Shown: positions 14,201 to 17,200 of the stretch, one piece after another
Layout: each line of letters starts with the position of its first letter
Position numbering within the stretch: position 1 is the first letter of the stretch
Position numbers and translations under genes: made by a program
NCBI RefSeq assembly: GCF_052324685.1
Contig: NC_135211.1
Location: 13,300,740 to 13,364,739, forward strand
Direction: 5' to 3'
DNA length: 64,000 nucleotides
From: Brachyhypopomus gauderio
Lineage: Eukaryota; Chordata; Actinopteri; Gymnotiformes; Hypopomidae
The notes under the pieces: model-generated
The model's input: the letters and a program-made list of their open reading frames with translations, nothing else
The model's database searches: none
What the model was told of the DNA's origin: nothing

Positions 14201-17200
14201 TTTGTGGCAGGCAGCTGTCAGGCGGGCTGAGGTCTGCGTGCAGGCTGTGAGGTGTCTGGGTTCGGTACCTGAATCTACGCCTGGGACACGACTGGTGTTG
14301 AACATGCGCTCATACTGGGATGAGCACATGGGAATAGTTTTTTGCAGCAAAAACTGAAAAAGCAAAGAGGAAGAGGTCAAATAAAAAAGGGGGAGGGGGG
14401 AGGGGTTTAAACGGGCCGAGCAGCTACGACATCCAATAGGAACTCGGTACCGTAGGGAACGAGGTCACTGCTGCAAGAGGGCGGATAGCGTGCGAGTTTG
14501 AGCCAAACTCATGGGGTCAAAATGGAGAGAACAGGGATATTTGTTGCAACACAAACACGTGCACACACACACACACAAACGCACACAAACGAAGATTCAG
14601 ATATGCTAGATGAATGGAATGAGAATGAGGAGACCCGGAGCTTGAACAGAAAAGTCCTGTAAAACCAGCACCCTACAGTCTCTGCTCAAGACCATTAACT
14701 GGTCAATAGGACAGACCTTTATTGTAATCTGTAAAAAAAATTTCTATCAAATCGCTAACTGGAAGAATGACTGGTAGCACAGGACTAGCACGGCAGGTCT
14801 TGCGGGGTGGGGGGGTTGCTTGAACGGGGGGGCCGGGGGACTAGCCGGTCTTACCCCTCTCCTGGCCTGGGACACGGCTGGTGTTGAACAGCCGCTCCCA
14901 CTGGGCGGAGCAGAACGGTACGTTGCTTGCTAGGGCAAAGAGCTGCTCCATCAGGAGGCAGGGGGAAAAGAATCAGCAAAGAAACTCAGGCAGGACGACA
15001 GAACTGACCGATCTGGAATGATGTTATTTACATTACACCAAATAATCGAGCCGGGACATGGTCATGCGATTATAGGCGTTATCGGTCAGTAACAACCTGA
15101 TCGGATTGTCGAAGACAACAGCAGGTTATCGCCCCATTCAAAACCATACCATCCGAGGCTTTTTCTAGTGATTATTAAGAAAATTCTGAAGCTCATTATT
15201 TGGTTAGCACATTTAAGGGCAGGTCGCCGATATGGCCCACAGTGACCAACAAAACGTTTAAAGTCCACACCGAAATCCCAACTGCTGAGACTCCTGCTAC
15301 CAAAAGGCATTATTTGTTCAGAGCACACAATCTGCTTCGCAGTGTGAAATAGCACTTGGCAAATGTCAGGACGCTCTAACCGGCTTTATCTGAGCTCGGT
15401 CCAGTTTCCTTCTGTAAAGCATGATGGCATGGATGGCATTCCCAGCCCGGGCAGCCTGGAGCTGTGTGGGAAACACGTAGAGGAAGTCCTGGAGGGAAGG
15501 AGACAAAACCGGAGTTAGAAAGGGCAGCGGTTAAACGGGCCAGAGGAACCAGCAGAAGGCGGCTCACCATTGCATAGTAGTTACTGTTGACCATGATTGG
15601 GTTACGGCTTCTAAGGTAGATATACTCCTCCCACCAATCACTGACCTGCAACCAGGGACACCCAAAAAAGTGTCATGTAAGAAGGGCACAAGTAGCTTTA
15701 ATGAGGCGTTTTTATTTACTATTTTTTTTAGCAAGCTCAAAAACAAAACAGAAAAATAATCACTTACGTAATTGGTTGCCCACAAGGACTTGAGCCACAA
15801 ATACCACTGAAGTTTAGGGGCATGATTCTTCTGAAAGTCTAAAGTGAGTCCCTCCATTCTTTTATATTCCTCTTCATCCAGAAGGGGGCGCACAGACTCC
15901 AGATACTGTGGGTACGGAGATATTAGCCAGGCATAACCAAGTCCAGCATTAAATCACCTACGATCTATGTATGAAACCAGGTTCACACAGACTACTGTTA
16001 GTTCTCATCCAAGGGTCAAGGTCAATTACCACTGGCACTTGCATTCAGTATTACATCCAAACCACAATTTCAGTCCATGAATATTCAACAGCGTGCCTTT
16101 TAGTAAGTTAACACATCACACGCTGTACCTCATAATTTAAGGTGCCAAATACCAAGCCAAGCTAACTGTGAAAATCAGACCCTGGTCCAGACACAAGTTA
16201 ACCCATCGCTGACCTCTTACCCATCTGAAAATGTATTAAAATTCAAATTAGAATTACGGGATGTCTGACTATATGATTAAATGTGGAAGATGTTTGATGA
16301 CAACTCTGATCTCAATGAAGCCTTCAGACATGGTGGTGCTTACTCTCGTCACAGTGTCCTTCACGGAGGGCACAGGCAAATTCGGCAGTGAAGTCTGGAA
16401 ACTGTAAAGTGTTGGTGTTTGTATCCCCGAGAAAATCTTCACTAGCACCTGCAAACACAAAACAGACACATTCAATCTTTCTTTGCATTAAAAATGTATA
16501 TACTAAAAACTTAAAGAAACAGAACTGTACCAAACAACTCAGTTTGTTTTGGTATAAAAAGCCTAAAATCAATCTGAGACCGAGGGCTCTGTTGTCATGG
16601 ACACGGAGCAAGTGCAAAAATAAGTCATAAGACTGTGGTGCAGGCATGAGTGGGTGTGGCAAAAATGTTGGTTGATATTTTCATGACTGGAGCAGGCAGA
16701 CTTAACTGGCACAGTGTGGCCAAGACACAAAAAGAGGCACGTTACACTGAATTCTTGCTCAGGCTGTGTGAGCCGGTGACAGAGTGCTTTAATAATCACA
16801 ATATAATTGTTTTTCCTTAGAAAAAACATTTGAGTTGTGTTTAATTAGTAATTGAGAGATAGTTACAGATATTTTTAGTGTGTTGATGTTCATGGTCAAA
16901 ATCGCATGTAAGAAATTGGACGTGTTTATAGGACTGCTTTATGTGAGGACAACAGCATGTTGAGTTGACTCTAAGAGCAGGTCCATGAAGGAGACAGCAC
17001 AAACACTGCTGTAAGTTTTAAAACTACTGTTGCACTGATGGATTTGTAACATCACGCCTCTTGTTGGTCCACTCCACCCACCATGCTGCAGGTACATTTA
17101 TATCTACCCACAAAATTACCAAATGGTGACATGCGGCATGAAATTAGTCACATGCAGCCCTAGCAGAGCACCGAGTGTCTCACTGGACCAACGTCCCTCA

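Follow-up and report, generated by a model that had tools for sequence, protein, structure and literature searches.

A likely case of conserved, mutually exclusive exons in a cpt1a gene of the teleost Brachyhypopomus gauderio

CPT1 is the malonyl-CoA-gated entry of fat into mitochondrial burning, and the diversity of the enzyme in vertebrates is usually ascribed to separate genes. To our knowledge, insects have a single CPT1 gene. The Drosophila gene, whd, reportedly carries alternative exons 6A and 6B, which are said to encode a 21-residue stretch of the catalytic domain linked to the binding of substrate and malonyl-CoA. Among fish, the CPT I alpha1a isoforms of the goby Synechogobius hasta have reportedly been put down to alternative splicing. 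Another paper names S. hasta cDNAs CPT I alpha1a-1a, 1a-1b, 1a-1c and 1a-2 (PMC5713373). According to a review, splicing of the single fly CPT1 gene gives rise to two isoforms with different kinetics and with different expression in flight muscle and fat body (PMC7767417). More than 90% of human tandem duplicated exon substitution events have bony-fish counterparts (PMC9741552).

A first-pass annotation of a 64,000-nucleotide stretch of the B. gauderio genome (hereafter the window) proposed that a cpt1a gene lying there carries a duplicated, mutually exclusive exon 8, and knew of no description of such a pair in fish. That last statement holds in one respect and is weakened in another: we found no report of the pair in fish or other vertebrates among the matches listed from the open-access literature, but the goby cDNA names hint at published cpt1a splice forms. 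The words "CPT1" and "carnitine" are absent from the main text of the tandem-exon survey (PMC9741552), as are "exon" and "splic" from that of a paper on the vertebrate Cpt1 family (PMC4589379). Genome annotation pipelines may already have predicted both isoforms.

The window holds a complete cpt1a-type gene on the minus strand, running from a start codon at 17953 to a stop codon at 8296. We built the gene model by hand from translated frames and checked every junction. Each transcript has 18 coding exons, and all 17 introns are GT-AG in either isoform. A self-written spliced protein-to-genome aligner returned identical exons with either isoform as input. The features are as follows, exon numbers counting coding exons only, each feature coming from both model and aligner unless its line says otherwise.

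17813..17953, minus strand, coding exon 1, with the start codon
17562..17704, minus strand, coding exon 2
17202..17373, minus strand, coding exon 3
16344..16448, minus strand, coding exon 4
15768..15905, minus strand, coding exon 5
15568..15645, minus strand, coding exon 6
15381..15488, minus strand, coding exon 7, common, ending ...AQIKP in phase 0
14855..14942, minus strand, alternative exon 8a, 88 bp, phase 0 to 1, CSAQWER type
14354..14854, minus strand, intron between 8a and 8b, 501 bp (model)
14269..14353, minus strand, alternative exon 8b, 85 bp, phase 0 to 1, CSSQYER type
13461..13656, minus strand, coding exon 9, common, DTLQHV after the phase-1 G
13042..13230, minus strand, coding exon 10
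12267..12372, minus strand, coding exon 11, EHSWADAP, with His 475 (8a isoform) or 474 (8b isoform)
12023..12139, minus strand, coding exon 12
11680..11844, minus strand, coding exon 13
11037..11168, minus strand, coding exon 14
9408..9560, minus strand, coding exon 15
9005..9118, minus strand, coding exon 16
8500..8592, minus strand, coding exon 17
8296..8382, minus strand, coding exon 18, with the stop codon (model; aligner up to the last sense codon)

The predicted protein has 774 or 773 residues, with an N-terminal extension before the acyltransferase domain; human CPT1A has 773, according to a review (PMC10076611). Exons of the gene match PF00755, the carnitine/choline acyltransferase domain, above the curated cut-off (contig C1, 13310147-13316647), and its relatives in the PDB are CrOT, CrAT, CPT2 and ChAT. 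Elsewhere in the window, at 1272-2251 on the plus strand, lie fragmented open frames that by eye resemble a Tc1-type transposase, and a 155-bp repeat at 3983-4136, interspersed by its look, is 94% identical to a copy near the cpt1a gene of contig C5. The neighbouring region, 19147-64000, contains an EGF/discoidin gene that by eye resembles mfge8/edil3; an Ig gene (V-set, 30882-31352) followed by link-like frames, hapln-like by eye; a minus-strand link-domain gene at about 36997-44012, by eye aggrecan-like, with a long Ser-Gly-rich repeat frame at 38357-39970; TRAF-like frames with RING (54152-54445) and MATH (56012-56917) domains; and, near 63 kb on the minus strand, frames that look like a TRPM channel by eye.

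The two homologous exons of 88 bp and 85 bp, 501 bp apart, were placed correctly to the base in the first-pass annotation, and the gene model bears out the reading frames proposed for them. For both exons the entry phase is 0 and the exit phase 1. Exon 8a encodes 29 residues and 8b encodes 28, and either one gives an open protein, of 774 residues with 8a and 773 with 8b. Using both or neither breaks the frame with an early stop: inclusion of both places it inside 8b at codon 339, ahead of 10 junctions, and skipping of both places it in exon 9 at codon 332, ahead of 9. Because so many junctions lie 3′ of the stop, transcripts of either kind should be targets of decay. One correction to the earlier reading concerns exon 7, which ends ...IKP; the GT of the donor accounts for the V read next in the open frame. 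The acceptor of 8a is a tandem GAG/CAG at window positions 14943-14948, where an in-frame 91-bp version of the exon with an extra Gln is also possible, and so could yield a third in-frame isoform.

Evidence for the pair also comes from CPT1-type genes elsewhere in this genome. A search of the animal's own assembly with PF00755 (796.5 Mb in 840 contigs; 76 of 97 candidates scored) gave at least 87 exon-level matches. CPT1-like loci were picked from the pattern of these matches, and a regular expression for the exon-8 core was run on eight loci, L009 to L016. It recovered seven exon-8 copies in five genes: the window gene (L016) and a gene on contig C5 (L010) have two each, and the genes C2a (L009), C2b (L011) and C13 (L013) have one each. 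The expression did not find the core in L012, which is the later part of the C2b gene, in L014 (contig C7) or in L015 (contig C6). By our own models the genome has at least five CPT1-type genes, a set that, going by what is known of vertebrate sequences, looks like two cpt1a, two cpt1c-like and one cpt1b. Protein identity is 78% between the window and C5 genes, 75% between C13 and C2b (the C2b model is incomplete at 720 residues, and the ends of both the C13 and C2b models are uncertain), and 61-65% for all other pairs. At the C6 locus (G000:C6:33017022-33019347; L004, L015), a stretch of about 2.3 kb holds three PF00755 matches that together span profile positions 2-503, one of them in a 1307-residue open frame. 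In this the locus is unlike its many-exon relatives, and it is perhaps a few-exon or retrocopy-like acyltransferase gene.

The C5 gene repeats the arrangement of the window gene. It encodes 774 or 773 residues, its 8a (88 bp, L010:4368-4455) and 8b (85 bp, L010:4860-4944) have the same order and phases with a gap of 404 bp, and double inclusion or double skipping leads to stops at codons 338 and 300. That another cpt1a gene has retained the pair argues strongly against either exon being a recent dead copy. The duplicated, frame-enforced, mutually exclusive exons of the original proposal fit the sequence of both genes, and we consider it likely that this teleost cpt1a gene carries two mutually exclusive exons conserved as a pair. 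This fish can probably splice two versions of the enzyme from one gene. A third copy or further relics were sought with the regular expression on the eight loci, with tblastn on the five gene loci, and in a donor-anchored scan of 23,016 GT sites; nothing stood out except a decayed stretch in the C13 gene, taken up below. In that scan of four stretches the 6 true exon-8 copies scored 96-105, and the best other site scored 23.1, so the likeness of the copies exceeds chance. One viral-contig scan and one genome-contig scan gave no outside relative.

A different role for 8b was considered: with 8a as the original, constitutive exon, 8b might serve mainly as a poison exon, its stop and the ensuing decay lowering the level of the enzyme. 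Double inclusion does give a stop inside 8b, at offset 41, in both genes. A pure poison exon, however, needs no complete frame, and 8b has one that restores the full protein when 8a is skipped. Its protein is also conserved, with 21 of 28 residues shared between the genes and the same key residues, and we regard a mainly poisonous 8b as very unlikely.

The two genes also speak to the age of the pair. Among the seven exon-8 copies, the two 8b exons grouped together in 99% (nucleotide) and 94% (amino acid) of 500 neighbour-joining bootstraps, and the two 8a exons in 85% and 68%. Separate duplications after the paralogue split were rejected by the AU test with both amino acids (p 0.022) and nucleotides (p 0.013). 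With the nucleotide alignment the KH (0.017) and SH (0.046) tests also rejected them; with amino acids they were not quite rejected (KH p 0.052, SH p 0.056). Since each exon groups with its counterpart in the paralogue and late duplications are rejected, the pair is old and both halves have been kept, and the sequence comparison shows that the tandem duplication predates the split between the window gene and its C5 paralogue. This split may have come with the teleost whole-genome duplication. A search of 64 kb around each cpt1a gene found, besides cpt1a, only repeat-like or unidentified matches.

Both exons have been under selection since. Between the paralogues, 20 of 29 residues of 8a are shared, somewhat short of the fraction given above for 8b. 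The ratio of nonsynonymous to synonymous change, a check proposed in the first-pass annotation and carried out here between the paralogues, is 0.27 for 8a and 0.34 for 8b, rough values from only 28-29 codons each, compared with 0.089 for flanking exons 5-7 and 9. Both exons are constrained, less tightly than their neighbours. Exon 8b has the highest nucleotide identity between the genes, 83.5%, followed by exon 7 with 83.3%, in a ranking of exons that leaves out 4 and 14 for their unequal length. Its dS is 0.40, compared with 1.17 in the flanking exons, and the similarity extends about 28 bases upstream of the exon (14354-14381), over a branch-like TTTGAC site and a pyrimidine tract. Either gene conversion or splicing signals within the exon would agree with the low synonymous divergence.

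Conversion between the 8b copies would also bear on origin, as would the borderline amino acid KH and SH results: the exon might have been duplicated independently in each gene, or conversion might have made the copies alike. The AU test on both alignments and the nucleotide KH and SH tests speak against independent duplication, however, and the two genes show the same differences between 8a and 8b, both in length and at five or more positions. We hold this origin to be highly improbable and retain a single duplication before the paralogue split.

How one exon might be chosen over the other was approached through splice-site strength, for which we used an approximate matrix of vertebrate sites. 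The acceptor of 8a is weak in both genes, at 0.6 bits in the window and 2.3 in C5 (constitutive means 7.6 and 6.6), and that of 8b is strong, at 10.3 and 9.8 bits. The donors are reversed: 8a has good donors (8.0 and 11.1; constitutive mean 6.8 in both genes), and those of 8b are below average (4.6 and 5.3). Some constitutive sites are equally weak, among them the C5 exon 9 acceptor (-0.4) and the window exon 14 donor (2.4), and the donors of 8b are close to or inside the range of constitutive donors, whose minimum is 2.4 in the window and 4.7 in C5. The asymmetry is a difference of degree, and it has the same direction in both genes, which suggests 8b as the default and 8a as the regulated choice.

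The weakness of the 8a acceptor in the window gene, where it is the weakest acceptor of all, could instead mean that only 8b is used there and that 8a is dying, its function being kept in the C5 gene. The window 8a also shares fewer residues with the cpt1c-like C2b exon, 13 of 29 compared with 17 of 29 for the C5 8a. Yet the window 8a keeps its open frame, both splice dinucleotides, its phase and all key residues, and the dN/dS of 8a given above also speaks against decay. Because the C5 8a acceptor is weak too, the weakness is common to the pair and looks regulatory. We therefore judge a dying 8a unlikely, and prefer a pair in which both members are in use.

In that pair, the spliceosome would pick one exon per transcript and nonsense-mediated decay would remove transcripts with both or neither. 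Exon 8b, with its good acceptor and poorer donor, would be the probable default, and 8a, with its poor acceptor and good donor, probably needs a tissue-specific splicing factor. Steric hindrance or U2/U12 incompatibility was rejected as the basis of exclusion: the introns measure 501 bp (window) and 404 bp (C5), and by eye the sites of exon 8 look like U2-type GT-AG. Competing RNA structures in the 501-bp intron, suggested in the first-pass annotation, were searched for, and no structure common to both genes was found. No inverted repeats of 14 or more bases connect the introns across the exons in the window, where the three pairs present all follow 8b, and the C5 matches listed (25 of 50) were swamped by an AT repeat. 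The fold of the middle intron is mildly more stable than expected, with z of -2.1 in the window and -2.7 in C5. Several splicing-factor motifs exceeded shuffled sequence in one gene and none did so alike in both; TGCATG was enriched in the C5 introns only.

The alternative segment lies in the active-site region of the enzyme. Its Cys is residue 306 in the 8a form and 305 in the 8b form, 169 residues before the His of EHSWADAP (475 or 474), and all seven exon-8 copies keep this Cys together with Thr at +10, Arg at +12 and Gly at +15. The human CPT1A disease mutations C304W, T314I and R316G appear in Table 1 of PMC10076611, and the same review names His473, which is 169 residues past C304. By this spacing, the Cys, Thr and Arg of 8a and 8b would correspond to human C304, T314 and R316. 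Around these fixed residues the two exons differ at 12 of 28 aligned positions, plus one residue of length. In both genes 8a and 8b contrast at five or more positions, among them C-3 (Val/Ile), C-1 (Phe or Leu/Met), C+2 (Ala/Ser), C+4 (Trp/Tyr) and the residue after PG (Gln/Val). These residues and the one-residue change of length, with the fly as precedent, make altered catalytic behaviour plausible. Judging from its position, an exon swap around a Cys of the catalytic domain might tune substrate affinity, malonyl-CoA inhibition, or both. The 8a form would then be mammalian-CPT1A-like and the 8b form more CPT1B-like.

The single-copy exons of the other genes fall into the same two types. The cpt1b-like exon looks b-type, with 9 residues before the Cys and PMCSSQFER. 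The two cpt1c-like exons look a-type, both in length, with 10 residues before the Cys, and in the Ala at C+2 (PLCAAQCER). One of these cpt1c-like genes, on C13, also appears to hold a decayed exon resembling 8b where 8b would sit, in the intron that follows its exon 8 (about 4212-4284 of L013, C13:4117500-4126500). It reads GCSYQFEKM-SHCHIPGVSA and is followed by a GT donor of the right phase. The Arg is absent, one codon is lost, and the 220 bases before the donor hold no phase-compatible acceptor for the whole segment. In a donor-anchored, gapped comparison the relic scored 33.3, against 23.1 for the best non-exon-8 site among the 23,016 GT sites of the four other stretches and at most 25.4 among 1,500 dinucleotide shuffles of the intron. 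The Gumbel p is about 9e-5, an optimistic value because the test was devised after the candidate had been seen. A simpler ungapped scan of the C13 intron gave no significant result, as the relic score of 32.0 equalled the maximum of 30 shuffles, also 32.0.

As protein the relic leans toward the b type, scoring 41.0 against both 8b and the 1b exon, 31.5 against 8a and 23.5 against the cpt1c-like exons. As DNA its one clear match is the 1b exon (22 of 25 bases, score 19); the cpt1a 8b exons, at 9-10, stand barely higher than the 8a exons (8 and 8) or the cpt1c-like exons (9 and 9). Trees of 29 residues do not settle the placement of either the relic or the 1b exon: grouping the relic with the C13 exon has a p-AU of 0.14 (5,000 resamplings, fewer than the program advises), and a duplication within cpt1a has 0.32 with amino acids and 0.67 with nucleotides. 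It is tempting to speculate that the pair arose before the CPT1 family of vertebrates and that an ancestral gene switched between a-type and b-type segments, perhaps the same as insect 6A/6B, an idea to which we would give slightly less than an even chance. If so, the paralogues would have split the pair among them, with cpt1a of this fish keeping both, the cpt1c-like genes the a-type (one with a dead b) and cpt1b the b-type. Differences between liver and muscle CPT1 would then be in part a splice choice turned into separate genes, and the pair would link CPT1 splicing in insects to the CPT1A/CPT1B split in vertebrates.

A conserved splice switch in cpt1a would mean that expression studies that treat the gene as one enzyme miss a layer of control, and the two exons would offer a natural two-version experiment on the residues that set CPT1 kinetics. 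Duplicated, mutually exclusive exons are a known kind of arrangement, and CPT1 has a known case in insects. The 8a/8b proposal has the form of tandem duplicated exon substitution, in which two homologous tandem exons are spliced singly (PMC9741552). Several cDNAs exist for the cpt1a of the goby S. hasta, and the segment in which they differ may or may not be exon 8. The comparison with the fly drawn in the first-pass annotation is apt: the fly splice isoforms differ in kinetics and tissue (PMC7767417). Insect 6A/6B and the predicted cpt1a pair share the same design, one gene with two splice isoforms, but the fly relies on one CPT1 gene, whereas the genome described here has at least five of this type.
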